Origin: Verrucomicrobiales bacterium
Lineage (GTDB): Bacteria > Verrucomicrobiota > Verrucomicrobiia > Limisphaerales > UBA1100
DNA length: 64,000 nt
Direction: 5' to 3'
Assembly: GCA_005809105.1 (NCBI GenBank)
Contig: SYLI01000053.1
Coordinates: 1 to 64,000 of the forward strand
Shown: in pieces, positions 7,256 through 41,778 of the stretch
How positions within the stretch are numbered: position 1 is the first letter of the stretch
Layout of the letters: each line of letters begins with the position of its first letter
Notes under the pieces: model-generated
What the model saw: only the letters and a program-made list of their open reading frames with translations
What the model was told of the DNA's origin: nothing
The model's database searches: none
Position numbers and translations under genes: made by a program

Positions 7256-8365
7256 TCAGCGCTTGCGCAGTCGCGCAAGGTATTCCAGCAGATCGGCAAG
7301 CTCCTGCGTGCTGAGGGTCTGAGCCAGCCCTGCGGGCATCGCCGAGAGCTTGGACTGGCGGCGCAGTTGCACCTCCGACTTCCGGATGCGCGTCACCACG
7401 CCGCCGACAGCCTTGATGGCAAGTTCCTCCGCCGCGTCGCTCACCAAGAGCCCCGTCCACTCGCTGCCATCCTTGGTTTGCACCTCCCACGATTCAAAGC
7501 CGAAGGAAATGCCCGCGCTCGGATCGAGAATCGACTCGAGCAAACCTTCGCGGCCCAGCTTGCTCCCGATCTCGGAAAGCGCCGGGCCAAAATCCGTGCC
7601 GCGGCCGTTCACCTGATGACACTTGGCGCAGCCCACGGCCTCGCGGAAATACACCGCCTCGCCCCGGAGGGCATCCCCGGGCATCCTGAGCAATTCAGCC
7701 ACGGGAGGCAGTGGCCGGTCTTTCGGGCCGACGGGCAGGGGCAGGCGACGGGCCGCCTCGGCTTTCACCTCCGGCCAGCGCGCGCCATTCATCTCGACGG
7801 AGGCAACAAACCGCACATCAGCCGGCAGCTGGCTGGCGCGCTCCCACGCCAGCAGTTGCATCGCGCCTTCCCGCGTGCGCGACAGGCCTCGCACGGCTTC
7901 CTTTCGGACGAGCGCATCCACGCGCAGATCGGTGACCAGGCCTGAGAGCCATCCGGCAGCCTTGGGATGGTTGCTCTGCGCCAGTGCTTGGGCCAACCCC
8001 AAAGCCCGGGCCTTGTCGGGCCCGCGCAGCAAGGGCTGCAAATTGGGGCCGGGAGCAGTGCCCAGAACAAGACGGATGGCCTCCACGCCGTGCTCCTCGC
8101 CGGGGAATCGTGAGGCCAATTCCAGAAGATCCGCCTCGCGCCCGGCGACCGCGAAGCGACGCACCAATTCCACAAACCGCGGAGTGCCCCGCACGGCATC
8201 GAGCACCTTGGAGAGCGCCTCCTGCAGCTTGGGATTGCCCTGGAGTGTCGCAGGTTCGAGCCGGCTCAACGCCTCGACCATCGTGTTGAGACGCTCTGGC
8301 GCGATGGCGTCGGCGGCACCCAGCCGCATCGTTGCCGACAGGGCGCAGAGGCAAAACCATCTCAT
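7256..8365 (-). CDS. Exported PVC-type heme-binding (cytochrome c) protein
   Basis: A protein of 369 residues starting MRWFCLCALSATMRLGAADA, a plausible signal peptide. Residues 30-220 look like helical HEAT-type repeats. The C-terminal 130 residues match the Verrucomicrobia/Planctomycetes heme-binding domain: CAKCH at 246-250, then GTDFGPALSEIGSKLGREGL, ESILDPSAGISFGFESW and, near the end, LSTQELADLLEYLARL. Such c-type heme domains take electrons from the sugar dehydrogenase with which they are usually fused; here that enzyme is the separate gene upstream. The open frame continues upstream to 8866, but that part lies inside the neighbouring gene in another frame and looks non-coding, so I chose ATG 8365. 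Last gene of the five-gene operon; 76 bp separate it from the gene before. Confidence 0.85.
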   Translation of the reverse strand: MRWFCLCALSATMRLGAADAIAPERLNTMVEALSRLEPATLQGNPKLQEALSKVLDAVRGTPRFVELVRRFAVAGREADLLELASRFPGEEHGVEAIRLVLGTAPGPNLQPLLRGPDKARALGLAQALAQSNHPKAAGWLSGLVTDLRVDALVRKEAVRGLSRTREGAMQLLAWERASQLPADVRFVASVEMNGARWPEVKAEAARRLPLPVGPKDRPLPPVAELLRMPGDALRGEAVYFREAVGCAKCHQVNGRGTDFGPALSEIGSKLGREGLLESILDPSAGISFGFESWEVQTKDGSEWTGLLVSDAAEELAIKAVGGVVTRIRKSEVQLRRQSKLSAMPAGLAQTLSTQELADLLEYLARLRKR

Positions 8366-8441
8366 CGCGCCCGAGCCTAGTCGCTGGCGACAGGCTCTGG
8401 CCAGTCTGAAACCTGAAACCGGTGACTCGAAGCAGTGCTTC

Positions 8442-11369
8442 CTACAGCCCGCCCAAGGCGATTCGGGCCAGCGCGTCGTCCTTCTCCTTGCTCTTGGGGA
8501 TGAAGTCGAGCGCGCGCAGGAACCGGGCCTTGTCAGCCTCCGCAGAGTTCTTGTCGGTGATGGCGTCGGCCAACAACTTGGCCGCATGCGTGCCGCGCGA
8601 ACGCCACAGGATGTCGCGCCCGGCCGGACTGTTCCACTGGCCGCCGGCCGATTTGAGCCATGCGTCGAGGCACTCATTCTCGCGGCGATCCGCGCCAATC
8701 CCCAACGCCTCAAGATACCAGCGATCTTTCCCGTCGTGGTGTTTGGCCAATTCAGCCCAGAGGGTGGGCATCCCCGCATCGGTATGGTGCCGCAATGCGA
8801 TAAGACATTCGCGGCGCACGAGCGGCGACCGGTCGGCCGCCATTTTCCGGACGAGCGGGAGGACATCGAGCTTGTGCAGGCGCGCCATGCGAAGCGCCAT
8901 GCCGCGCACGTCGTCGCTGGCGTCAGACTGTGCTACCTCCACTGCGGCCGCCGCTCCGCCGCGGATGGCCGCGAGCAGCCACAGGGCGCGGGCGCGGGCG
9001 CGGGGATCGGCGTCGTGGGCCAGTTTTTCCAACGCCGGCCGCGCCTGCTCCTGCATGGTGTTGAGGCTGGTCCATGCCACCTGGCGCACGGCGAAGTTGG
9101 GATTCCGAAGCGCAGCCACACAGCCCTCGGCTGTGGCGAAGTTGAACTTCGGCGTCTTGTATCCGGTGTGGCCCTTGGGGGTGAGGCGGAAGAGGCGGCC
9201 CCGTTCCAAGTCTCCCATGGCATGGCCGCCCACGCCTGGATCGTACCAGTCGGCCACGATGAGCGATCCATCCGGCGCCACTTTCACGTCGGAGGGGCGG
9301 AACCACTTGTCGCGCGCAGCGCCATCCAGAACGTTGACAATGGTGGCAGAGTAGCCGGCGCCCTGGCGTTGCACCGGATACGCACGAACGATGCTGGGCC
9401 CGGCGTCGCAGTGGATGACCTGACCCTGAAAGGTCTTTGGCAACAGGTCGCCCTCGTACACGGTGATGCCGGTGGGCGAACCCTGTCCGGTGTTTAACAG
9501 GTTGGGCACGACACCCGGGTCGTCCAGATGCCAGTGGTACCGGTACTTTTGTTCGTCGGGCAGCTTGGCCTTGGCGTTGGCCTGCTTCCATGCATCGCCC
9601 CAGCCCGCGCCCGTCAGCTCATCACGGTAGCCGTAGTTACCAAACTCCATCACGAAGTTGATGCGGACGCCGCGGTTGCCATCGTCGTCATTGTCCGACT
9701 GCCACAGCGACCCGAAGCTGTCCACCGTCACCATCCAGTTGTTTCGGAAGTTCCAGCCGAGCGTCTCCACGGCGCTGCCGTCAATCCGGCACCGGAAGGC
9801 CATGCCTTCCTGATAGGGCTTGCGCGAGGCCTTCACCTCGTTGCCCGCCAGATCCACCACGGGCTTGCCGTCGCGGTCCTTGAGCTGGCTGCCGCTGTTT
9901 CCAAAGTTGAAGTAGAGCCGCCCGTCCGGCCCGAAGGTGAAGGCGTGGATGCCGTGGTCGTGCTGCGTGCCGGAGATGCCGGAAAAGAGCGTCTCCTTGC
10001 GGTCGGGCTTGTCATCGCCGTCGGTGTCGGTGAACACCTGCACCTTGTCGCCGGCACTCACAATGACGCGCGTGTTCCGCCCGTCGGGGGTGCCCAGCAC
10101 GCACACGCCGTGCGGCGAGTCGATATCGGTGCCCTGATAAAACACCTTCGCCTTCTCCGCCGTGCCATCCCCATCGGTGTCCTCCAGAATGAGGATGCGG
10201 TCGCCGCCGGGGCGCTTGCCCTTGTGGCCGCGATAGTTGATCACCTCGCACACCCACACGCGGCCGCGGTGGTCGATGTCGATGTTCGAGGGGCTAAAGA
10301 GCATGGGCTCGGCGGCGAAGAGCGACGCCTGCAGTTCCGGATGCACGTCCAGGTTGCCCAACGCCGCGGCCGGATCCCTGCCTCCGGGTTTCTGGCCTGC
10401 AATGGCAACCGGCTTCGGGGCGGCCGTAGCAGGTGCTGCGCTGGTGGCAGGCTTGGGCTTGGCTCCTCCCTTGGCATCCAGATTGGCCATGAGTTCATCC
10501 TGCGTGAGCTTACTCTGAACGCCCCCGGTGGGAACGGACACGCCCGCAATCCAGAGAATGGCGTTGCCGATGAGCTTGCGCTGGTCGTCGTTGCCCCAGC
10601 CCATGTGATTGTGGCCGCCGGTAAATCCAAACCCGCGCCCGCCATCGGGCCGCGTGGCCACCCACATCATGTGCTGCGCCTCCTTGCGATCGGCCACGGC
10701 CCGGAACACGTGCGGGTTGCCGCCATGGCTGGAAGTCTTGGCGTCGGCGGGCTTGTCCTTGCTCCAGCCGGTGGTGCGCTCAGGCGGCAGCACCGAAAGG
10801 ATGGGCGTCACGTCCTTCATGCCCTCGCGAAAGCGCATGTGGTAGTACCACTCGTCATTGGTCTGAAAGGGATTCACGCCTTGGGTGACTTCGTGCTTGG
10901 GAAGTTGAGTGTACGAGGCCGTCCAGTGGGGGTTGACGCTCCAGTGCGTCTCGAAGCATCCGCCAATCCAGTCGCGAAACTCGGCGTTGCCCTTCTGCGT
11001 GGTCGGCTCGACGGCGTAGTGAAGCGTGCCCAGTCCAACGCCCTGTTTCATCAAGGCACCAATCTTGGCCAGCCGATCGCCCTGCAGCAGGGGATGGCCG
11101 CCGCCGCCGTCACTGTACACCACGATGGCCGCGGCGCCTTCCAGCGCCTTCTCATTGCTCACCCAGCCGTTGGTGTGCACCTGCGTGGTGACGCCCGGAA
11201 TCCCCGCGAGCGTCTTGGCCAGCAGCAAGCAGCCGGCGCGATGCTCGTGCGAGAGCGGCCCGTGGCTGGGCCCTCCGGCAATGAAGATGATTTTCTTGTC
11301 GGCGGCGGCACCGTCCATGGCCAGCGAAAGCGCCAGGAGGCTGAGTGTCGTGGTGATTTTCCCGTTCAT
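8442..11369 (-). CDS. Exported ThuA domain + PVC-type membrane-bound dehydrogenase + HEAT repeats
   Basis: Multidomain exported protein of 975 residues. A signal peptide (MNGKITTTLSLLALSLA...GAAA) is followed by a ThuA-like domain (IIFIAGGPSHGPLSHEHRAG; MRFREGMKDVTPIL; FGFTGGHNHMGWGND), a Pro/Ala/Lys linker around residues 290-330, a beta-propeller of the PVC membrane-bound dehydrogenase type (DIDHRGRVWVCEVINYRG; ILEDTDGDGTAEKA; HGIHAFTFGPDGRLYF), and C-terminal HEAT repeats. The propeller family resembles soluble sugar dehydrogenases; ThuA is linked to 3-keto-disaccharide use in rhizobia. Related proteins normally also carry the heme domain at the C-terminus, which here is the next gene. Start ATG 11369 is chosen for the signal peptide; the 37 upstream codons look non-coding. 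It lies 19 bp after the ThuA gene. Confidence 0.88.
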   Translation of the reverse strand: MNGKITTTLSLLALSLAMDGAAADKKIIFIAGGPSHGPLSHEHRAGCLLLAKTLAGIPGVTTQVHTNGWVSNEKALEGAAAIVVYSDGGGGHPLLQGDRLAKIGALMKQGVGLGTLHYAVEPTTQKGNAEFRDWIGGCFETHWSVNPHWTASYTQLPKHEVTQGVNPFQTNDEWYYHMRFREGMKDVTPILSVLPPERTTGWSKDKPADAKTSSHGGNPHVFRAVADRKEAQHMMWVATRPDGGRGFGFTGGHNHMGWGNDDQRKLIGNAILWIAGVSVPTGGVQSKLTQDELMANLDAKGGAKPKPATSAAPATAAPKPVAIAGQKPGGRDPAAALGNLDVHPELQASLFAAEPMLFSPSNIDIDHRGRVWVCEVINYRGHKGKRPGGDRILILEDTDGDGTAEKAKVFYQGTDIDSPHGVCVLGTPDGRNTRVIVSAGDKVQVFTDTDGDDKPDRKETLFSGISGTQHDHGIHAFTFGPDGRLYFNFGNSGSQLKDRDGKPVVDLAGNEVKASRKPYQEGMAFRCRIDGSAVETLGWNFRNNWMVTVDSFGSLWQSDNDDDGNRGVRINFVMEFGNYGYRDELTGAGWGDAWKQANAKAKLPDEQKYRYHWHLDDPGVVPNLLNTGQGSPTGITVYEGDLLPKTFQGQVIHCDAGPSIVRAYPVQRQGAGYSATIVNVLDGAARDKWFRPSDVKVAPDGSLIVADWYDPGVGGHAMGDLERGRLFRLTPKGHTGYKTPKFNFATAEGCVAALRNPNFAVRQVAWTSLNTMQEQARPALEKLAHDADPRARARALWLLAAIRGGAAAAVEVAQSDASDDVRGMALRMARLHKLDVLPLVRKMAADRSPLVRRECLIALRHHTDAGMPTLWAELAKHHDGKDRWYLEALGIGADRRENECLDAWLKSAGGQWNSPAGRDILWRSRGTHAAKLLADAITDKNSAEADKARFLRALDFIPKSKEKDDALARIALGGL

Positions 11370-31350: not shown

Positions 31351-31445
31351 GCGCCTTGCCTAGCACGCCACGCGGCGGTTGGCCAACGCCAAAACCGGAG
31401 GAGAAAACGGTTGTCATTGCGGGCCACATCCGCACAATCCACCCC

Positions 31446-33311
31446 GTGAATCCCGCGCGGTTTAAGCCCCTGCTGTTTTTGCCGCTGTGCCTGTGCCTCT
31501 GCGCCCTGAAGGGCCGCGCGGCGGTGCTGCAGGTGCGGCCCGGTGCCGTCAATCAGGTGTCGGTGGTGCAGGAGGGACAGGTGCTGGCGGTGTATGGCGG
31601 CCCCGCCACGGCGGAGTGGCTGCTCATGACCGACGCCCGGCGCGACGCAGGCTGGTCGCTGCCCCGGGGCGCACAGACGCGCGTGGCCGCGCCGCAGGCG
31701 GCGCGCGAGCACATCGAGAAGCCCGACCAATTCTGGGCGGCGTTTGTCACCAACCGTTTTCATGACTACGCGCAGCAAACCACCAAGGTGCTGGCCGAGC
31801 CGGCGGCCGTGGCGCGGTGGGTGAAAGAGGGCGACGTCATCGAATGGCGCGGGTTGAGCTGGCGTGTGCTCGACACCCCGGGGTTTGCGCGCGGCAGCGT
31901 GTCCTACGTCGCGCTGCTGGAGGGAAAGACGACCGTGTTCACCGGCGACCTCATTTACAGCGATGGAAAAATTCTGGACCTCTACAGCCTGCAGGACGCC
32001 ATTCCCGAGGCGAAGGTGGGGGGCTATCACGGCTACGGCGGGCGGTTGGGCGATCTCATCCAAAGCCTGCGCAAGATTCGCGCATTGAAGCCCGATCAGC
32101 TGGTGCCCGCGCGCGGCCCGGTCATTCTGGATCCGCTGCCGGCGATTGACCGCCTCATCGCCCGCTTGCAGGCGTTGTACAAGAACTACCTCTCCACCAA
32201 CGCGCTGCACTGGTATTTCAAGGAGGAGCGGATGCGGCTCTGCGGAGAGCGCGTGCTGGGGGACGGCGCGGCGGTGGAACTGATGCCCTACTCGCTCAAC
32301 ATCCCCGCACCCGACTGGGTGTTTAATCATTCCACGAGCCGCCTCTTGATTTCCGACGACGGCCACGGCTTCCTGCTGGACTGCGGCTACCAGCGCGTCA
32401 TCGACGCCGTGAAGGATCTTCAGGCCAAGAATCTGGTGAAGAAGGTCGAGGGCATCTTTGTCACCCACGCGCACGACGACCACAGCGACATGGTTCAGAA
32501 GGCCTCCGAGGTGTTTGGCTGTCCCATCTACGCGACGGAGGAGTACGCCGACGTACTCACGAATCCGGGCGCGTACCACCTGCCCGCACTCTCCTTCAAT
32601 GCCATGAAAAACCTGCGCGCCATGAAGGACGGTCAGAAGCTGGCGTGGCGTGGGCTGAACCTCACCTTCCACTATTACCCCGGCCAGATGCTCCACCACG
32701 GCGCCCTGCTCGTTGAAAAGAAGGGCCACGCGCCCATCTTTTTCATCGGTGATTCCTTCGCGCCTTCCGGACTGGACGACTACTGTCTGCAGAACCGCAA
32801 CCTGCTTCACGAAAACTCGGGCTATCTATACTGCCTCAAAAAACTCGGCCAGTTGCCCGAAGGCTGCTGGCTCATGAATGAGCACATCGCGCCGCTGTTC
32901 CGATTCAGCGACAAGGAGCGCGCCCATCTGGAGAAACGCTATCGCGAGCGCATCGCCCTCCAGCGCGATCTCTATCCTTGGGATGACCCCAACTACGGCG
33001 TGGACGAGCAGTGGGCGGTGTTTTACCCGCGCGTGGCCACCGCCGGAACCGACCGCCTCGCCACGGTGGAGTTGCGCGTCACCAACCACTCGCCCAAGAG
33101 CCGCACCTTCCAACTCACCCCGCGCGCGTGGAATGGGGCCGCCGTGGTCGGCGCGTGCGATCCCCTCACAGTGGTGTCGCGCCAGACTGGCGTTCGTCGC
33201 GTCACGGTGCGGCTGCCTGCCGGCATCGCGCGTGCCTTGGTGACGGCGGGCGTGCAGTCGCCGGGCATGGAATTTCGCGACTGGGTCGAGGCGCTCGTCG
33301 TGGCTCCGTGA
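31446..33311 (+). CDS. Exported protein with two metallo-beta-lactamase-fold domains, the first degenerate
   Basis: 621 residues from GTG 31446, with signal peptide FKPLLFLPLCLCLCALKGRAA. Two metallo-beta-lactamase-like domains follow. In the first (about 40-225) the metal motif position reads TDARRDA (62-68) instead of THxHxDH, and the next ligand motif DTPGH is DTPGF (143-147), although VFTGD is kept, so metal binding is probably lost. In the second (about 275-500) the motif is intact: THAHDDH with histidines at 341, 343 and 346, PGQMLHHGALLVE and FFIGDSF. The C-terminal 100 residues are beta-rich (ATVELRVTNHSPKSRTFQ). The in-frame sequence upstream to 31335 has no start with a better ribosome site. 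First gene of a five-gene run; the next start overlaps its stop by GTGA. Confidence 0.82.
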   Translation: MNPARFKPLLFLPLCLCLCALKGRAAVLQVRPGAVNQVSVVQEGQVLAVYGGPATAEWLLMTDARRDAGWSLPRGAQTRVAAPQAAREHIEKPDQFWAAFVTNRFHDYAQQTTKVLAEPAAVARWVKEGDVIEWRGLSWRVLDTPGFARGSVSYVALLEGKTTVFTGDLIYSDGKILDLYSLQDAIPEAKVGGYHGYGGRLGDLIQSLRKIRALKPDQLVPARGPVILDPLPAIDRLIARLQALYKNYLSTNALHWYFKEERMRLCGERVLGDGAAVELMPYSLNIPAPDWVFNHSTSRLLISDDGHGFLLDCGYQRVIDAVKDLQAKNLVKKVEGIFVTHAHDDHSDMVQKASEVFGCPIYATEEYADVLTNPGAYHLPALSFNAMKNLRAMKDGQKLAWRGLNLTFHYYPGQMLHHGALLVEKKGHAPIFFIGDSFAPSGLDDYCLQNRNLLHENSGYLYCLKKLGQLPEGCWLMNEHIAPLFRFSDKERAHLEKRYRERIALQRDLYPWDDPNYGVDEQWAVFYPRVATAGTDRLATVELRVTNHSPKSRTFQLTPRAWNGAAVVGACDPLTVVSRQTGVRRVTVRLPAGIARALVTAGVQSPGMEFRDWVEALVVAP

Positions 33312-34942
33312 AGCGACGGCCCGTCAAAACCCTGATTCGGGAGGCCATTGCGCTCTTGGGGGCGATCCTGGCCGCCGCCGCACCCTTCGCCGCCGCCCAT
33401 CCCATCTCCATGAGCACCGCCACGGTGAACGTGCGCGAGACCGAGGTGCTGGTGGAGCTGCGCATCATGGCCGAGGACCTGGTGTTGCAATACAAGCTCA
33501 AGCCCGACGCGGAGCCGCGCTACACGCCCGCCGATCTCAACCGCACGGCGCATGCCCATCAGGATTTTCTGCTTCGACATTTCACGGTGCGCAATGCCCA
33601 GGGCGAGGCGCTGGCCGGCACGGTGCTGCGCATGGACACCGAGCAGGTGGCCCAAGGCGCGCTCTTGACCGAACTCATGGCCCGCAACGTGGTGTACTTG
33701 ATGCGCTATCCGGTGGGCGCGCCGCCGCCCTTTCTCACGTTCACGCAGAATCTGGGCGGTGCCAAGGCCGGGGCGCCTTCGGTGATGGACCTTCTCGTGC
33801 TGCAGAAGGGCGTGTGGCTGGACACGCCCTTTCAGGTGCTGGCCGGCCAACCCCATACCGTACGGCTGACGTGGGGTGCCGGGCCCATCGAGCCTCCGAA
33901 GAACTGGCGCGAACTCAAGGCGCGCCGGGAGGAGGAGTTTCGCCAGCGCCTCGGCATCACCAGCTACGCGGGCATCTACTCGTACCTCTACCTCACGGCC
34001 CACGAGGTGCGCCACGAAATCCTCGTGCCCGCGCTTACGTTTGAACACTGGGTGCCGCTGACCCGCCGTCACCCTGATTTTCTCGACGTGGATGAGCAGC
34101 AGGCGGCGCGTGCCCGCATCGAGGCCTATTTTCGCGATCGCCACCCCGCCACACTGGACGGCCTCACCGTCAAGGCCACGCTGGCGCGCGTGGACTTCTT
34201 CGGGCTGGACATCAACGATTTTGCAACCCAGGCGCCGCCGCGCCGCGTGGGCATGCACCAGGCGCGTCTGGGGATCATCCTGAGCTACCCTGCCACGCAG
34301 GCGCCGCGCAATGTGGAGGTGCGCTGGGACGCCTTCCACAAGCACGTCGCCTTCCTGCGCAGCACCGTCTATGTGTACGACCAGCCGCCGCGCGAGCACT
34401 TCTTCATCGAGGACAAGCCCGTGTTCCAATGGACGGCGCCCGTGGGAACGCGCCCGCCCCCGCCACCGCGGCCCGTCCTCCACCAACTCGACGTGCGGCA
34501 GCCCGCGCCCCGCGATGCGGCGCTCATCTTCACCGCGCTGCACCGAAACCTCTACCGCGCCTTCGACCAGCGCGGCGACCGCGACATTTACGACGCGCTG
34601 GCCGCCAGCGTGGACGGGCCATTGCTGAGGCAGCTCTACCTGCAATTCCAGCGCAGCCTGTTGATGGAGGAACAGGGCGGTGCCGTCTCGCGCGTGCAAT
34701 CGGTGCGCATCCAGGAGGGCGCGGCGCGGGCCACGCGAGCGGGCGCGGGCTTCGAGTATCCCTGCCGATGGCGCGTCACCGGCACCGTCGAACACTGGGG
34801 GCACATCCACACGCGTGAGAACGAGTACGAGGGCACCTTCACTCTCGCGCCCACGCCCGGGGGCTGGCGCGTCACCGACTACGAGTTGACGGGCCAGAAG
34901 CGGGTTGGATTTCAGACGGGCCTGCGCGCCCCCCCGCCGTAG
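33308..34942 (+). CDS. Exported unknown protein, predicted mature N-terminus His-Pro
   Basis: I do not recognise the family. 544 residues from GTG 33308, coupled to the previous gene by a GTGA overlap. The signal peptide ends AAAAPFAAA and cleavage would leave HPISMSTATVNV. A free N-terminal His-Pro after cleavage is common in secreted metal-related proteins (HupE-like, DUF6702-like), so metal binding is possible, not shown. The body is predicted mainly beta with charged helices (REEEFRQRLG), a His-containing segment (AHEVRHEILVPALTFEHW), a Pro-rich run PPPPPRPVL and a C-terminal domain (YPCRWRVTGTVEHWGHIHTR). No membrane helix after the signal. It precedes an ABC ATPase gene by 4 bp. Confidence 0.75.
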   Translation: MKRRPVKTLIREAIALLGAILAAAAPFAAAHPISMSTATVNVRETEVLVELRIMAEDLVLQYKLKPDAEPRYTPADLNRTAHAHQDFLLRHFTVRNAQGEALAGTVLRMDTEQVAQGALLTELMARNVVYLMRYPVGAPPPFLTFTQNLGGAKAGAPSVMDLLVLQKGVWLDTPFQVLAGQPHTVRLTWGAGPIEPPKNWRELKARREEEFRQRLGITSYAGIYSYLYLTAHEVRHEILVPALTFEHWVPLTRRHPDFLDVDEQQAARARIEAYFRDRHPATLDGLTVKATLARVDFFGLDINDFATQAPPRRVGMHQARLGIILSYPATQAPRNVEVRWDAFHKHVAFLRSTVYVYDQPPREHFFIEDKPVFQWTAPVGTRPPPPPRPVLHQLDVRQPAPRDAALIFTALHRNLYRAFDQRGDRDIYDALAASVDGPLLRQLYLQFQRSLLMEEQGGAVSRVQSVRIQEGAARATRAGAGFEYPCRWRVTGTVEHWGHIHTRENEYEGTFTLAPTPGGWRVTDYELTGQKRVGFQTGLRAPPP

Positions 34943-34946
34943 TCGC

Positions 34947-35612
34947 ATGGAAATCCGAGTGCAGAATCTCGAGTTTGGCTACGCCGGTGCGCCCGGATTT
35001 AACCTGCGCGTGGCGCGGTGGGAACTGTCCTCCGGCCAGTGCGTCGCCCTCACCGGCCCAAGCGGCTCGGGCAAGACCACGCTCCTGCGCCTGCTCGCCG
35101 GCATGCTCGTCCCCCAGCGCGGACACATCCACGCCGACGCCCAGCCGCTGGCCGCACTCTCCGACGCCCAGCGCCGCGCCTTTCGCATCCGGCGCGTCGG
35201 CTTCGTGTTCCAGGATTTCCGCCTGCTCGACTATCTCGACGTGCGCCAGAATCTGCTGCTGCCCTATCGCATCAACGACGCCCTTCCCATGGATGAGGCC
35301 GTGCATGCGCGATTGGAGACACTGGCTCACCATCTGGGAATCGCGCACCGGCTTGGCCACAACGCGCGGGACCTCTCGCACGGCGAAAAGCAGCGCGCCG
35401 CCGTCGCACGCGCCCTGCTGCCTGGGCCGCGCCTGCTGCTGGCCGACGAGCCCACCGGAAGCCTCGATCCGGACAACGCCGGCCGCCTCGCCAGCCTTCT
35501 GCTGGAGCACGCCCGCGAGAGCGGCGCCACGCTCGTCGCCGCCACTCATGATCCAGAGCTGGCCCGCCGATTTGATGGCGCGGTCAGCGTCAACACCCTC
35601 GCCGCCCTCTGA
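34947..35612 (+). CDS. ABC ATPase, LolD/MacB-like
   Basis: 221 residues from ATG 34947 (MEIRVQNLEFGYAG). Walker A GPSGSGKTTLLRLLAGML, Q-loop FVFQDFRLLDYLD, signature LSHGEKQRAAVARAL (the usual LSGGQ altered), Walker B LLLADEPTGSLDPDN and switch His in AATHDPE. The form is that of LolD/MacB/FtsE-type ATPases, not of ZnuC. Its partner is the FtsX-like permease that starts 2 bp after its stop. Cytoplasmic face of the membrane. Confidence 0.92.
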   Translation: MEIRVQNLEFGYAGAPGFNLRVARWELSSGQCVALTGPSGSGKTTLLRLLAGMLVPQRGHIHADAQPLAALSDAQRRAFRIRRVGFVFQDFRLLDYLDVRQNLLLPYRINDALPMDEAVHARLETLAHHLGIAHRLGHNARDLSHGEKQRAAVARALLPGPRLLLADEPTGSLDPDNAGRLASLLLEHARESGATLVAATHDPELARRFDGAVSVNTLAAL

Positions 35613-35614
35613 CC

Positions 35615-36817
35615 ATGCGGCACCGACTTTTCCTCGCATGGCTTCACCTGCGGCACCATCGTGTGCGCTCCGCCATCCTGCTGGCGTGCCTGACGCTCAG
35701 CTTCTGCCTGCCGCTGGCCAGCCACTGGCTGGTGCGCGAGTTTGACCACCGCCTGAGCGGGCGCGCCCAGATTGGCCGCGCCACGCCCCTCATCGTGGGG
35801 GCGCGCGGCAGCCGGTTTGACCTGGTGCTGCATGCGCTCCATTTCCGGCCGCTCGCGGGAGGCGGCGTGTTTGACGCCTCGGAACTGGCGCGTCTGCGCG
35901 CCGCGCAGACTGCCACGCCCGTGCCACTCTGCCTGCTCGATTTCAAAAGCCGCCGCGGGCGCGCCTTCCCCATCGTTGGCACCACGCTGGATTATTTTGA
36001 ACTGCGACGGCTGGTCGTGGCCTCCGGCGAGGGGTTGACGATGCTGGGCGACTGTGTGCTGGGCGCGGGCGCCGCCGACGCGCTGGGCGTTGCGCCCGGC
36101 GGCACCCTGACGCCCGATCCGCGCAGCCTTTCGGATTTGTCCAGCCTGCCGCTCAAACTGTCGGTGGCTGGGGTTCTCGCGCCAACGCGCACGGCGGATG
36201 ACGACGCCATCTTTGTGGACATCAAGACGGCGTGGGTGCTGGCCGGACTGGGCCACGGGCATGACCCTGCCACGGCCGATCCGGCAGTGCGCCTGCCGGG
36301 GGCTCCGACCAATCAGGTGGTGTTTAACGACGCCCTGCCCGTGGCGGGGTTGATCCAGCCTGAGAATCTCGCCTCCTTCCATTTCCACGGCGACCTTTCG
36401 CGGCGCCCGCTGACGGCCATTCTAGCTCTGCCGCACAGCGAGCGCGACTCGGTGCTGCTGCAGGGCGACCGCGCCTACCTCTCGGGTGCGGGCCCCCTGC
36501 AAGCGCTGGTGCCCGCGCAGGTCGCCGGACAGATGGTGGAGATGGCGCTGCGCGTGAAGCGCTATGTGGACGCGCATGATGTGGTGGTCGCGGTGGGCAC
36601 GGTGCTGTTTCTCTCGCTGATGGTGCTGCTCTCACTGCGACTGCGGCGCGAGGAAATGGAAACCCTCTTTGCGCTGGGATGCAGCCGCGGAACGATGTTC
36701 GCGCTGCAGGCGTTGGAGCTGCTGATGCTTTTGGCGGCGAGCGCCGCGCTGGCGGCCGCACTGGCGTGGGCATTTGCCGCGCAGGCCGACCGTTGGATGC
36801 GGGGGGCGGGACTGTGA
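35615..36817 (+). CDS. FtsX/MacB-like ABC permease
   Basis: 400 residues. One N-terminal helix (VRSAILLACLTLSFCLPLA), a periplasmic domain of about 280 residues, and three C-terminal helices (VVVAVGTVLFLSLMVLLSL; ALELLMLLAASAALAAALAW). Between helices 2 and 3 it has REEMETLFALGCSRGTM, equivalent to the REIGVRRALGA loop of MacB. The periplasmic part contains a small His cluster, GLGHGHDP, and a FHFHGD motif. Such permeases do not usually form an import channel but transmit force to periplasmic partners, which makes the pairing with a ZnuA-like protein notable. Its stop overlaps the lipoprotein start by GTGA. Confidence 0.88.
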   Translation: MRHRLFLAWLHLRHHRVRSAILLACLTLSFCLPLASHWLVREFDHRLSGRAQIGRATPLIVGARGSRFDLVLHALHFRPLAGGGVFDASELARLRAAQTATPVPLCLLDFKSRRGRAFPIVGTTLDYFELRRLVVASGEGLTMLGDCVLGAGAADALGVAPGGTLTPDPRSLSDLSSLPLKLSVAGVLAPTRTADDDAIFVDIKTAWVLAGLGHGHDPATADPAVRLPGAPTNQVVFNDALPVAGLIQPENLASFHFHGDLSRRPLTAILALPHSERDSVLLQGDRAYLSGAGPLQALVPAQVAGQMVEMALRVKRYVDAHDVVVAVGTVLFLSLMVLLSLRLRREEMETLFALGCSRGTMFALQALELLMLLAASAALAAALAWAFAAQADRWMRGAGL

Positions 36818-37776
36818 AGCGCCCGCGCTTGGAATTGCTGACCTTTGCTGCGCTGGCGGCGCTGCTATTGGCAATGGCCGGCTGCCCCGCACCGCCAATA
36901 CGGCCGACGCCTGCCGCATCGGGGACAGGCCCGTTGCGGATTCTCGCTGCCAATCACCCGCTGCAATACTTTGCAGGGCGCATCGCGGGCACGGCTGCTG
37001 TGGTGACGCAACCGGCACCCGCGGGCGAGGACCCGGCCGACTGGCATCCGCTGCCCGCTCAGATTCGGACGTTCATTCACGAATGCCAGAAGGCCGACCT
37101 CATGTTGCTCAACACCCCCGGCTACAGCCGCTGGCTGGATTGGGGGTCGTGGGCGGAAGCAAGGATGGTTCACACGACGGGCACTTTCACCGACCACCTG
37201 TTGCGGCTTGAGGAACCATCTCAGGCGGGCACCCACCGGCATGGCAACGGCACGGCGCACGGCCACGGTGAATGGGCGGGCACTGTCTGGCTGGATCCGC
37301 AGCTTGCGTTGCGCCAAGCGCAGGCCACTGCCGCGGCGCTTGCCCGACTGCGCCCGACGCAGGCGGCCGAGTTTGATGCCAATCTGCGTGGGCTGGAGAA
37401 CGACCTTCAGGCGTTGCACCGCGACTGGACACAGTTGCTCCAGGGGCACGAGGAGTTGCCGCTGCTCGCCTCGCATCCGGTCTATCAATACTTCCAAAAG
37501 CGGTACCGGCTGAATCTGCGGAGCGTCCACTGGGAGCCTGACCAGATGCCCGACGAGGCGCAATGGGCGGAGCTTGAAGCGCTGCGGCAGAAACATCCGG
37601 CGCGCCTGATGCTCTGGGAGGGAACGCCCCTGCCGGCGGTTGGCGAACGGCTGCGCGAGATGGGGATTGCCGTGGTGGTGGTCTCGCCCGGGTTCGCCGC
37701 GCCGCAAAAGGGCGACCATCTGGATTTAATGCGGAGGAATGTGGCGGCGATGCGAGCTGCACTCTCCGAACCCTGA
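36814..37776 (+). CDS. ZnuA-like metal-binding lipoprotein
   Basis: 320 residues from GTG 36814: lipoprotein signal ALLLAMAGC (Cys24), then the cluster A-I metal-binding fold. Motifs in order: AANHPLQYFAGRIAG, GEDPADWHPLPAQIRTF in place of the usual DPHDYEPTP region (the His is shifted), LMLLNTPGYSRWLD, a His-rich loop HRHGNGTAHGHGEW (141-154), TVWLDPQLALRQA, LLASHPVYQYFQKRY and HWEPDQMPDEAQW. Classical ZnuA passes Zn or Mn to ZnuBC; no ZnuB- or ZnuC-type gene is here, and the ATPase and permease beside it are of LolD/FtsX type. It closes the five-gene run. Confidence 0.88.
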   Translation: MKRPRLELLTFAALAALLLAMAGCPAPPIRPTPAASGTGPLRILAANHPLQYFAGRIAGTAAVVTQPAPAGEDPADWHPLPAQIRTFIHECQKADLMLLNTPGYSRWLDWGSWAEARMVHTTGTFTDHLLRLEEPSQAGTHRHGNGTAHGHGEWAGTVWLDPQLALRQAQATAAALARLRPTQAAEFDANLRGLENDLQALHRDWTQLLQGHEELPLLASHPVYQYFQKRYRLNLRSVHWEPDQMPDEAQWAELEALRQKHPARLMLWEGTPLPAVGERLREMGIAVVVVSPGFAAPQKGDHLDLMRRNVAAMRAALSEP

Positions 37777-37917: not shown

Positions 37918-40900
37918 TTGAGCTGCGCGTGGCGCCAGCCCACGCAACCGGGAGGGTTCCCTCGCGTCTTGTCCCGCTGGGCATGGAGCAGTCTGGCTGC
38001 GGCCTGCCTGTGGCTGGGAGTTGCCCCCGTGGAGGCCTTCGTGCTCATCGGCCCCATGGAAACCAACCGGCTGACGACCACCAACGTCGGCACCACCATC
38101 GACCTCAATTACTGGGACGATCTGGGTGGGCCCAAGGAGGCAAAGAATTTCTACCGGTGGAACATGCCCAAGCTGACGTACGCATTTGACGCCAGCTTCA
38201 TCAACTACTTCGGGTTGGAAGGCCGGTTCGCGGTGAACGAGGCCGTCGCGGTGCTCAACGACTTCTTCAATAACGAGGACTACACGGGGGTAAGCGCACT
38301 GCGCATCGCCGATTCCAAGCACGGGTTTCTCGGCAACTACAACACGACGTGGGTCAACACCACGGCGCGCAACTCGCAGGTGCTCGACATCAAATCGCTG
38401 ACGCTGGGGCTGCTGCTCAACCATCTGGGAGTGGGCAACCCGCACCGCTGGGCCTTCAGCATCCATGACGCGACGACCAATCAGGCCAACACGATGGTGA
38501 ACTTCCGCGTGCGCCTGCGAAATTACGACCCGCTCACCTACCGCCCCACCGACTTCATCAACGGCGTGCAATACAGCTACCGGCTGGTGCACGACGGCAC
38601 CAATTCTCCGGGACTGAACAACGGCCCGGCCTTCATCATGCCGACCTTTGCCGACATGGAGGAGTTCACCACCGACATCAGCGGCAATGCGTGGTCGGCC
38701 GTGGCTGGCATTGGCGACGCCTTCTACGGCAACTCGCTGGTGTATTGGACCGACAAGCCCACGCTCTTTGACTTTGGCGTGTATTTCGATGGCAAGAATG
38801 CGATGGGCGGCAAGCGCCAGCCGCGCCACGCGCTGACGTACGATGACGCGGGTGGGCTCAAGTACCTCTACCGCACCAACAATTTTGTGTTCGAAACACT
38901 GCCGCTGGACGTCGTGCTGGTCGTGCCCTCGCAACTGCTGCCCCTGACAGCCGTGCCGGTCTTTCCCGGGCCCACGGGCCGGCTCTTCCCCGACACGCTG
39001 GGCGGCAATCAAGGCTTCATCCCTCGGCGCAACACCGCCTTCATTCCTGCGCTGCCCATCACCTCGGTGCTGCCCGCGCAGGGTCCGCCGCCGTTTTACG
39101 ATCTGGCCATGCGGGGCGGCGTGGACCAAATGCAGCTCATCGAGCAGCCCTTCGACTCGCTTTTGGGCATCACGTTCACGGCCACCAACATCATCTGGAC
39201 CGACACCTTTATCACCACCAACGGCCAGACGGTACTGGGCCGCAACAACACCTTCCCGGGATCGGAGCTTTATCTCGGCGTCCCCACACTGCGATTTGCC
39301 ACGCAGACGGTCGGCCGACCGGTGTTCCAGCCCGACATCATCTTTGTGGCCGACGATCTGGGTTTATCGCCCGACGGCGTGCCCATCGGCTGGAACCGCA
39401 CGGACTCGCTGGGCTGGATCGACAATTTCACGAACAACCTGGGGCCCACGGTGACGTTTGAGACCAACATGGGGCCGGGCGTCATCATCGGCCCCATTCA
39501 ATTCACCTACCACAAGGTGCACGAGGACTTTGAGGTGCTCTGGTCTGGGCAGGCCAGTGTGGTGGGCAACACGCAGTCCTACTCGCTGTGGGGCCACCTG
39601 CAGGGCCCGGGCCCCGACGACATCGTGCTCTTCCCGCGCGACGTGCGCATGTCCATCGTGGAGAATGCCGTGGCACCGGCCACGAGCGTGCCGCTGATTT
39701 CCAAGGTGTCGGACAACGGCGAGAAGACCAGCGAGGGTTTCACCCTCAGGCGCACCGAGGAAAAACTCACGCTGCTGGGCAGCCTGCTCGCGTCGGTGAC
39801 CGCCATCGAGGTGCTTAACGGCAACGTCGTCGTGCAGACCATCGTGCCGGCCACGCGCTACATCGTCTCCGATCAGCGCATGGACATCCCCCCCGGCGTC
39901 ATCAGCGACGCCGCCGAGGGCGTGGCGCGGTCGTTCCGCGTCTGGAACACGGTGGGTGTGAGCGAGAAGGCGACCGACACGTTTACCATCGAGTCCGGGC
40001 GGCCCGTCATCACCGGCACCTCGGCCGACGATGCGGTGCATGACCGCGCCCAAGAGCTGACCCTGCGCGGCTATGGCTTTAAGAGCACCGAGAGCGGCGC
40101 ACTGAAAATCGCCTACCTGCGCGTGGACAGCGGCACCGGGCTGGCCATCACGCCCTCGGATGGCAACGTGACGGCCGTCACCATCGATGTCTTGAGCGAC
40201 ACGCTGGCTGTCGTGCCGGTCAACGGCATCAGCAGCCTGGCCGACGGCAGCAACCGGCGCGTGCGGGTTTCACGCAAATATCCCACCCTCACCGCCCCCG
40301 CGGAGACCGTGCTCAGCCCCACCAACAACGTGCGACTGATGACGGCCATCACGGCCAGGCCGGTCATCGCCGCCTACCAGGCGTTCGGCCAGAGCGCGCT
40401 GGGGGGCGAGTTTAGGCGCGACACGCTCATGGAAGTCAACGGCACCGGCCTCAACACGGCCATCCGCATCGAACTTGTGGACGGCAGCGGCAGTGCCTTG
40501 GGCACTCCGGTCGCCGTGGATCTGCCCCACGCGGCCATCCATGTGGAGGACAAGGGCACGCGCATCCAGATTGCCGCGGATGCCTTTCTGAGCCCCGAAG
40601 CCGATGGCAATCACTCCACGCTGCTGCGGCAGTTCAAGGTGTTTAATGCCGTGGGCAACACCGCCAGCAACAGCTCGCTTCGGTTCAACGTCAACGTGCA
40701 ACCCCGCGTGGACTCGCTGGCGGCGTTCAACACGTCGGGCGCGTGGAATCGCGACAATGCCACCGGCGACAAGATCACCATCACCGGCTACGGACTGGGC
40801 GCGGTGGGCCGCATCGAGGTTCAGACCTATGAGGGTGCCGAACTGGTGCCACAGCCTTTTCTCGAACTCACCCCCAACATGCCCGGCGTGGTCGTGACCG

Positions 40901-41778
40901 ATGCCGCCATCACGATCGACCCACAGAAGCTGGGCGACATCGCCGCGGCAGGCTTTCACGGCGCGACGAGTGCCGACTCCACATCGGCGAACACCTACCG
41001 CGTTTTCAAGCTCTTGAGCGCGCGCGCCCCTGTGAGGTCGTCCTCGGCCCAGCGTTTCATCGTGGGAGTGCCCCCCACCTTTAGCTCCCTGAATGGAACC
41101 ACTGCCAACAACTACCGTCGTGACGCCGACACGCTGCTCATTAACGGCGGCGGGATGGGCATGGCCACGCGCGTGGAACTGGTGGACGCTGCCGGGATTG
41201 CCATCGCAGGGACGCACGCGCTGGACACCTCGGGTGGATTGTCCGCCCCGTCCACGACGCAGCTCTCCATCGCCGCGAAGGCCACCGGCTGGAGCAATAT
41301 CGCACATCTTCTGGACTCGCCGGCCGACCTAGGCCGCCGCGTCCGCGTCACCACGCCCTTTGGTGTGGTGACCAGCCCTGCCAACAGCGCGGGTGCCTTC
41401 ACGGTCTCGGCCACGCCGGCGTTCGGCCCCACGGCGCAGAACACCTTCTCGGGTGGCGGCTATGACGGCAGCAGCGGCAATGGAACCTATGACTTAAGCG
41501 ATGGCAATCTCATGGTGACCGGGCAGAATTTCCGGGGCGTCAAGCGCGTGTTCCTGGAGGACAGCAATGGCACGTCCTACGCCAGCGTGCCGCTCAATCC
41601 CGCGGCACCCCCCAATGGCATCGCCTTCAACGCCGAGGGCACGCAGATGGTGATTACGTCGGGCTTTGCGGGCTTTAGCAACTGGGCCACACAGAACGCG
41701 ACCAATCCCAAGTTCGTGACGGTCTTGAGCGCGGCGAACATCAACGCCACATCGCCCGTCATCCTGACGCGGCCCTAA
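37918..41778 (+). CDS. Large exported protein with tandem IPT/TIG-like domains
   Basis: 1286 residues. The N-terminus has a signal sequence (SSLAAACLWLGVAPVEA). Residues 40-590 form an unrecognised region starting WNMPKLTYAFDASFINYFG, reminiscent of secreted peptidase folds, but no HExxH or other zinc motif is present. From about 590 on there are six similar beta-sandwich units of 105-125 residues starting near 592, 696, 815, 928, 1051 and 1166; typical cores are LTLRGYGF, LMEVNGTGL, ITITGYGLG, LLINGGGMG and LMVTGQNFRG, as in IPT/TIG domains of surface proteins. The start is unsure: TTG 37918 is used, but AGGAGGGG lies 22 bp upstream of it. Probably on the cell surface or secreted; binding partner unknown. 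141 bp of apparently empty DNA precede it. Confidence 0.8.
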   Translation: MSCAWRQPTQPGGFPRVLSRWAWSSLAAACLWLGVAPVEAFVLIGPMETNRLTTTNVGTTIDLNYWDDLGGPKEAKNFYRWNMPKLTYAFDASFINYFGLEGRFAVNEAVAVLNDFFNNEDYTGVSALRIADSKHGFLGNYNTTWVNTTARNSQVLDIKSLTLGLLLNHLGVGNPHRWAFSIHDATTNQANTMVNFRVRLRNYDPLTYRPTDFINGVQYSYRLVHDGTNSPGLNNGPAFIMPTFADMEEFTTDISGNAWSAVAGIGDAFYGNSLVYWTDKPTLFDFGVYFDGKNAMGGKRQPRHALTYDDAGGLKYLYRTNNFVFETLPLDVVLVVPSQLLPLTAVPVFPGPTGRLFPDTLGGNQGFIPRRNTAFIPALPITSVLPAQGPPPFYDLAMRGGVDQMQLIEQPFDSLLGITFTATNIIWTDTFITTNGQTVLGRNNTFPGSELYLGVPTLRFATQTVGRPVFQPDIIFVADDLGLSPDGVPIGWNRTDSLGWIDNFTNNLGPTVTFETNMGPGVIIGPIQFTYHKVHEDFEVLWSGQASVVGNTQSYSLWGHLQGPGPDDIVLFPRDVRMSIVENAVAPATSVPLISKVSDNGEKTSEGFTLRRTEEKLTLLGSLLASVTAIEVLNGNVVVQTIVPATRYIVSDQRMDIPPGVISDAAEGVARSFRVWNTVGVSEKATDTFTIESGRPVITGTSADDAVHDRAQELTLRGYGFKSTESGALKIAYLRVDSGTGLAITPSDGNVTAVTIDVLSDTLAVVPVNGISSLADGSNRRVRVSRKYPTLTAPAETVLSPTNNVRLMTAITARPVIAAYQAFGQSALGGEFRRDTLMEVNGTGLNTAIRIELVDGSGSALGTPVAVDLPHAAIHVEDKGTRIQIAADAFLSPEADGNHSTLLRQFKVFNAVGNTASNSSLRFNVNVQPRVDSLAAFNTSGAWNRDNATGDKITITGYGLGAVGRIEVQTYEGAELVPQPFLELTPNMPGVVVTDAAITIDPQKLGDIAAAGFHGATSADSTSANTYRVFKLLSARAPVRSSSAQRFIVGVPPTFSSLNGTTANNYRRDADTLLINGGGMGMATRVELVDAAGIAIAGTHALDTSGGLSAPSTTQLSIAAKATGWSNIAHLLDSPADLGRRVRVTTPFGVVTSPANSAGAFTVSATPAFGPTAQNTFSGGGYDGSSGNGTYDLSDGNLMVTGQNFRGVKRVFLEDSNGTSYASVPLNPAAPPNGIAFNAEGTQMVITSGFAGFSNWATQNATNPKFVTVLSAANINATSPVILTRP

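Follow-up and report, generated by a model that had tools for sequence, protein, structure and literature searches.

A Zrg-related Type VII ABC system with a ZnuA-like lipoprotein, a candidate for ATP-driven metal transfer in the bacterial periplasm

The five-gene operon described here, which lies within a stretch of 64,000 nucleotides from a Verrucomicrobiales bacterium (contig SYLI01000053.1, positions 1 to 64,000; hereafter the window), encodes a relative of the Zrg-type Type VII ABC systems with four departures from them: loss of metal ligands in a ZnuA-like lipoprotein, invariant histidines in the permease, loss of the permease transmembrane helix TM4, and a ZrgA-like part that is tandemly repeated and fused to an NTF2-like domain. 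These features, together with the conservation and linkage of the components, were read from sequences and computed models. We propose, with moderate confidence, that the products form a Zrg-related Type VII ABC machine that uses ATP to transfer metal at the periplasmic face of the membrane. The initial annotation of the window had already linked the cluster to metal, a view that is supported here.

All five genes lie on the plus strand between 31446 and 37776 and are joined by GTGA overlaps or gaps of 2–4 bp, an arrangement which the initial annotation had given with the same coordinates and which was borne out base by base. The first gene (31446..33311, GTG start) encodes an exported protein with two metallo-beta-lactamase (MBL) domains and is a lineage-specific accessory. 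The remaining four are core components: a ZrgA-like protein, previously listed as an exported unknown (33308..34942, GTG start, GTGA overlap with the MBL gene), an ABC ATPase (34947..35612, after a 4 bp gap), a permease of the ZrgB/PA4065 clade (35615..36817, after a 2 bp gap) and a ZnuA-like lipoprotein (36814..37776, GTG start, GTGA overlap with the permease gene). A palindrome in the divergent promoter gap (GTTGGCCAAC, 31378..31387) reads ATTGGCCAAT in the sister genome, a symmetric change between the two sequences compared, and is a possible if weak candidate for an operator or promoter element. Directly 3' of the operon lies a gene for a secreted protein of 1286 aa without a Pfam match (37918-41778), which is kept downstream of the operon in the window's family (loci L033, L037, L038, L040, L042, L043, L046).

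A permease profile search of a one-genome-per-species collection returned 259 loci, and the system is thus common. The best 80 of the 259 were kept; they come from records named Verrucomicrobiota, Planctomycetota, Lentisphaerales, Kiritimatiellia, Hydrogenedentota and Sumerlaeota, from several gamma-, delta- and alphaproteobacteria, Acidobacteriota, Gemmatimonadales, Nitrospinota and Entotheonella, and from Rokuibacteriota, Dadabacteria, Eisenbacteria and Crocosphaera. Among all these records, single contigs of metagenome-assembled genomes may be misbinned. The core set is spread over twelve or more bacterial phyla. Full flanks, defined as more than 5.5 kb on either side of the permease, were available for 32 loci; the ATPase is present at 31/32, the ZnuA-like gene at 29/32, the ZrgA-like gene at 28/32, both partners at 25/32 and an MBL gene at 6/32, and the core is therefore ZrgA-like protein, ATPase, permease and ZnuA-like lipoprotein. 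The initial annotation had mentioned ATPase/permease/ZnuA-like groupings in other PVC bacteria and named random neighbourhoods in relatives as the outcome that would speak against it. The neighbourhoods are not random, and the groupings are found in PVC bacteria and in many other phyla besides.

Co-occurrence was examined in 289 Verrucomicrobiota genomes, with thresholds of E below 1e-70 for the permease clade and E below 1e-45 for the ZnuA-like subfamily. The permease clade is present in seven of them, all seven of which also have the ZnuA-like subfamily and the ZrgA-like protein; two other genomes have the ZnuA-like subfamily without the permease. The association with the permease gives Fisher p values of about 1e-12 for the ZnuA-like and 3e-13 for the ZrgA-like protein, the seven genomes representing some five independent lineages. 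Four genomes of one family carry permease, ZnuA-like and ZrgA-like genes at three separate loci, and because the parts are kept there unlinked, the association is not merely that of an inherited gene cluster.

The double MBL gene is found at 12 of the 80 loci, restricted to Verrucomicrobiota and Planctomycetota, and is thus a lineage-specific addition outside the core. Pfam detects two Lactamase_B stretches; the HxHxDH site is intact in the C-terminal domain (H341/H343/D345/H346, H418, D436, H480), whereas that of the N-terminal domain is degenerate. It had been suggested in the initial annotation that the motor supplies this secreted enzyme with metal; since an MBL gene lies near so few of the fully flanked loci, such supply cannot be the general function, although it is possible within Verrucomicrobiota. 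In addition, one or two exported MBL genes of the NCBIfam GntH family lie near the core at proteobacterial loci (L070, L071, L073, L086, L106, L113), at several directly upstream of the ZrgA-like gene. MBL enzymes have thus been recruited to the core system twice, the proteobacterial case being unrelated to that of the double MBL in PVC bacteria.

The ATPase (Pfam ABC_tran, 1.1e-31), whose Walker A and signature motifs are intact, is of the LolD/FtsE/YbbA/Zrg type; it was dropped as a classifier because LolD, YbbA and Zrg all score 200–220 bits. The permease matches FtsX (2e-6) and MacB_PCD in Pfam and, with a large periplasmic domain after TM1 and a LolD-like ATPase as partner, displays the features of the Type VII superfamily (Pfam, hydropathy), to which LolCDE, MacAB, FtsEX and YbbAP also belong. 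By analogy with these systems, the motor presumably works by mechanotransmission, and may do so without passage of substrate through the membrane. However, it differs from them in its fewer TM helices, in having metal-binding partners in place of LolA, MacA, EnvC or TesA, and in sequence. A profile HMM built from the permeases of the 80 loci scores E. coli YbbP (15 bits), LolE, MacB, LolC and FtsX at 15 bits or less, compared to 89 bits for the P. aeruginosa permease encoded in a ZrgA (PF10986)-ATPase-permease-DUF3299 operon (PA4065 type) and 95–112 bits for other Zrg-like permeases. In the permease tree the window clade is monophyletic (100/99) and forms a separate sister clade, the Zrg side being weakly supported (65/28) and the long MacB and Lol branches unsurely placed. 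Profile scores and tree together indicate that the permease belongs with the ZrgB/PA4065 clade, and a metal-linked motor of such a type therefore has precedent. The earlier label of LolD/FtsX type is supported in so far as it points to a motor of the mechanotransmission type, but it is too coarse for this permease.

Within the clade the permease is distinctive in two ways. The motifs GHGH (H214, H216) and FHFH (H256, H258) of its MacB-like periplasmic domain are invariant in all 80 homologues, whereas among Zrg permeases only the position of H216 is held in common (37/38). This invariance is not a selection effect, because the search patterns by which loci were collected end just before H214. 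Judged by hydropathy only, 79 of 80 window-clade permeases have three TM-like segments in total, two of them following the periplasmic domain, while all 38 Zrg-type permeases have four or more, with three or more following it. The usual Type VII permease has four TM helices (PMC12646458), and from the two segments remaining after the periplasmic domain we conclude that the window clade lost one helix (TM4). In one Zrg-type permease (L178:250-2115, minus strand) over 200 residues rich in His, Asp and Gly are inserted at precisely the position of the GHGH...FHFH motifs of the window clade. Besides the operon, the window's own genome encodes another LolD/MacB-type pair that belongs to the Zrg clade (G000:C54, L195:2660-5760), and genes for a His-rich lipoprotein (SHHHHEHDHGHE...) and a protein of the DUF3299 family come after it; this is a Zrg-like system in Verrucomicrobiota, and its ZrgA analogue matches no Pfam family.

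The ZrgA-like protein has DUF6702 as its sole Pfam match, below threshold; a PDB sequence search found nothing, and there is no match by sequence to PF10986 (ZrgA). The AF2 model of this exported protein (pLDDT 85) has as its top Foldseek match the Cu-bound domain of the anglerase Ang-1 (9gce, E 1.3e-6), with V. cholerae ZrgA (E 1.4e-5), P. aeruginosa PA4063 (E 3.4e-4) and NTF2-like folds also among the top meaningful matches; these are given for the whole model, and the fold match is moderate but specific (TM about 0.6 when normalised by target). In the N-terminal half a ZrgA/DUF6702/anglerase-like beta-sandwich is duplicated in tandem (hhalign prob 90, E 1.5e-6). The model fits a ZrgA-like protein whose repeated domains are joined to an NTF2-like one, a result which was reached independently of that for the permease and is consistent with a permease of Zrg type. 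In the published Ang-1 structure the nearest structural neighbour is ZrgA, and DUF6702 is a demonstrated Ni/Co/Cu binder (PMC12537917). With the HupE/UreJ-2 'anglerase' Ang-1 and the DUF6702 metal sequesterases, the protein shares the fold of its repeated domain and, in about half of homologues, a mature N-terminal His (PMC12537917). It differs in that the domain is duplicated, His-1 is not universal (His in 24/46, Asp in 20/46) and an ABC motor takes the place of the HupE permease as partner. TM-like segments separate the duplicated part from the C-terminal domain in most homologues and are lacking in the window version.

Histidine clusters had been noted in three members of the operon by the initial annotation, and all are present; those of the permease and lipoprotein are not due to chance, but the His-Pro mature end of the ZrgA-like protein is less general. 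A stronger signal in that protein, absent from the motifs listed at the time, is HWGHxH near the C-terminus (H496, H499 and H501 in the NTF2-like domain), which is invariant in 46/46 homologues.

The lipoprotein (lipobox LAMAGC; Pfam ZnuA PF01297, 1.8e-33) clearly has the ZnuA fold of cluster A-I binding proteins (AF2 pLDDT 91; Foldseek to AdcA 7jj9, E 1.4e-18). Its canonical ligand positions, read from an alignment of 58 homologues to AdcA, are altered: His-1 (position 75) is Ala in 49/58 and never His, His-2 (position 157) is Thr in 45/58 and His in 3/58, while His-3 (H221) is kept in 56/58 and the Glu (E269) in 55/58. A loop of the form HxHG...HxH (H141/H143/H149/H151), elsewhere usually an accessory feature, is invariant (57–58/58), and the metal is probably held by this His loop rather than by the canonical buried site. 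The pairing of a ZnuA-like binder with a mechanotransmission motor is indeed as unusual as first remarked, but with two canonical ligands replaced this is not the normal A-I binder then assumed. The system shares the ZnuA fold with the cluster A-I importers ZnuABC, AdcABC and TroABCD, but differs in having no ABC-3 (PF00950) permease in the operon, such genes being found elsewhere in the genome, and in the two replaced ligands. Relatives in the window's family carry a separate canonical TroABCD-type importer with a normal TroA, and the operon is therefore not the housekeeping A-I system. We also considered the lipoprotein as an orphan binding protein for the genome's ABC-3 genes, and rejected this since relatives possess, over and above the ZnuA-like protein, a canonical TroA next to TroBCD. 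In the window's genome, genes for an ATPase and two ABC-3 permeases lie beside an outer-membrane porin-like gene (G000:C14:165690-167884, L208) with no binding protein before the contig end, the spot at which relatives carry TroA; the genome's own TroA is probably missing at this contig end.

Recurrent neighbours of the core are limited to FadL-type outer-membrane proteins (6–7 loci) and exported MBLs; DUF3299 (ZrgE) is not among them, and occurs in the window's genome at the second, Zrg-like locus. TonB receptors lie beside some loci. Genes for CopC, NikR and DUF4198 beside others point to different metals, and further neighbours to none. A search for a Zur box of the gammaproteobacterial type within 400 bp upstream of the loci returned none. 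Copper is one candidate cargo: CopC and a P-type ATPase lie beside Methylococcaceae loci and one ZnuA-like gene lies in a cbb3-oxidase cluster, but this is not general across other loci. At L205:5277-12930 (genome G092) a member of the ZnuA-like subfamily (8244-9161) occurs without the permease amid genes for cytochrome oxidase (COX1), a ferredoxin and an HMA-type P-type ATPase, which suggests copper for this member.

In the machine that we propose, two metal-binding proteins, the ZrgA-like protein and the rebuilt ZnuA-like lipoprotein, would flank the motor, and the permease would present its four invariant histidines at the place where these partners dock. The periplasmic domain would open and close by mechanotransmission as the LolD-like subunit binds and hydrolyses ATP, and the movement would drive loading or release of metal, with Zn, Cu, Ni or Co as candidates, among these histidines, the lipoprotein and the ZrgA-like protein. 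What we infer is that the cargo is metal, which way it moves, that it stays in the periplasm and that the partners dock on the permease. A motor of this kind has a parallel in NosDFY-NosL, where an ABC motor drives periplasmic transfer of copper between partner proteins; the permease there is of a different family, and we draw an analogy in working, not a claim of homology. Periplasmic transfer is the best reading because two metal-binding folds and the permease histidines surround a motor from a family, Type VII, which typically does not pass its substrate across the membrane (PMC12646458), and with TM4 lost a path for translocation becomes less likely still. Invariant His clusters recur in three core proteins across phyla (permease, lipoprotein and ZrgA-like protein). 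Against it stand the zinc-import behaviour of Vibrio zrg mutants described below, the moderate fold match of the ZrgA-like protein, a genus within the window's family that lacks the ZnuA-like gene but keeps the remaining operon, the absent Zur box and the mixed metal neighbours. More tentatively, and short of calling it probable, we suggest that this is a minimal three-helix Type VII motor for ATP-driven hand-over of metal between two unrelated folds, ZnuA-like and ZrgA-like. It would then act as a powered metallochaperone instead of a transporter, one that is widespread and undescribed in the literature searched.

The role of Zrg/PA4063-type systems is itself disputed between zinc import (PMC9820375) and metal-chelate export (PMC11481552). 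Since zrg mutants of V. cholerae and V. parahaemolyticus, including those lacking zrgA or zrgABC, are starved of zinc and behave like zinc-import mutants (PMC9820375, PMC9817125), relatives may move metal across the membrane, and the window's ATPase and permease could likewise bring Zn, or some other metal, into the cytoplasm. This follows the proposal for V. cholerae ZrgABC and would make solute-binding proteins of the ZnuA-like and ZrgA-like partners. The ZrgB-clade permease and the ZrgA-like fold would fit such an importer, which we nevertheless consider unlikely: three TM-like segments leave little for a channel in a family typically lacking a translocation path, a TroABCD-type importer already exists in the window's family, and no Zur box was found upstream. 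A still more doubtful reading is that the motor expels a metallophore whose metal the binding proteins strip or buffer, as argued for pyochelin-cobalt and PA4063-PA4066, where genetic support for export exists for PA4064-4065 of the same permease clade (PMC11481552); FadL-type proteins or TonB receptors at some loci agree with this, but the conserved core includes no membrane-fusion protein or TolC, and metallophore synthesis genes do not recur beside it. A machine unconnected with metal, extracting lipids or lipoproteins in concert with an MBL hydrolase as YbbAP does with the periplasmic hydrolase TesA (PMC12646458), and with structural His motifs, is very improbable in spite of the exported MBL genes in two unrelated lineages, given that most loci lack an MBL, that two independent metal-binding folds and three proteins with invariant His clusters are involved, and that the permease is unlike YbbP.

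The preferred system, periplasmic metal transfer by a Zrg relative, resembles V. cholerae ZrgABCDE and P. aeruginosa PA4063-PA4066 in the clade of its permease, in having a LolD-like ATPase as a separate protein, in a periplasmic, putatively metal-binding protein with a ZrgA-like fold and in gene linkage (PMC9820375, PMC11481552). It differs in adding a cluster A-I lipoprotein, in the tandem repeat and NTF2-like fusion of its ZrgA-like part, and in a permease with four invariant histidines and three rather than four TM segments, again with no Zur box found. Because neither the DUF3299 partner nor four TM helices are present, we regard it as related to Zrg but not a member. A search of the open-access literature for the pairing of ZnuA-like and FtsX-type proteins returned the Zrg papers only, and the combination is undescribed there. 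Existing annotation often labels its genes simply 'zinc ABC transporter substrate-binding protein', 'ABC transporter permease' or 'hypothetical protein', and the components are therefore probably misannotated as an ordinary zinc importer. By joining a permease of the Zrg clade, with its four invariant histidines, to the known metal-binding fold of ZnuA, this branch offers exact targets for mutagenesis and a separate case on which to test the disputed role, and with TM4 lost it could reveal how mechanotransmission is put to use on metal ions.

At locus L036 (G013:C9:114001-134000) every gene of the five-gene operon is split by stops or frameshifts, reflecting decay or an assembly error. Within the window, the minus strand between 18325 and 28414 encodes an outer-membrane efflux protein resembling TolC together with two more LolD-like ATPases, possibly a cluster of the MacAB-TolC type.
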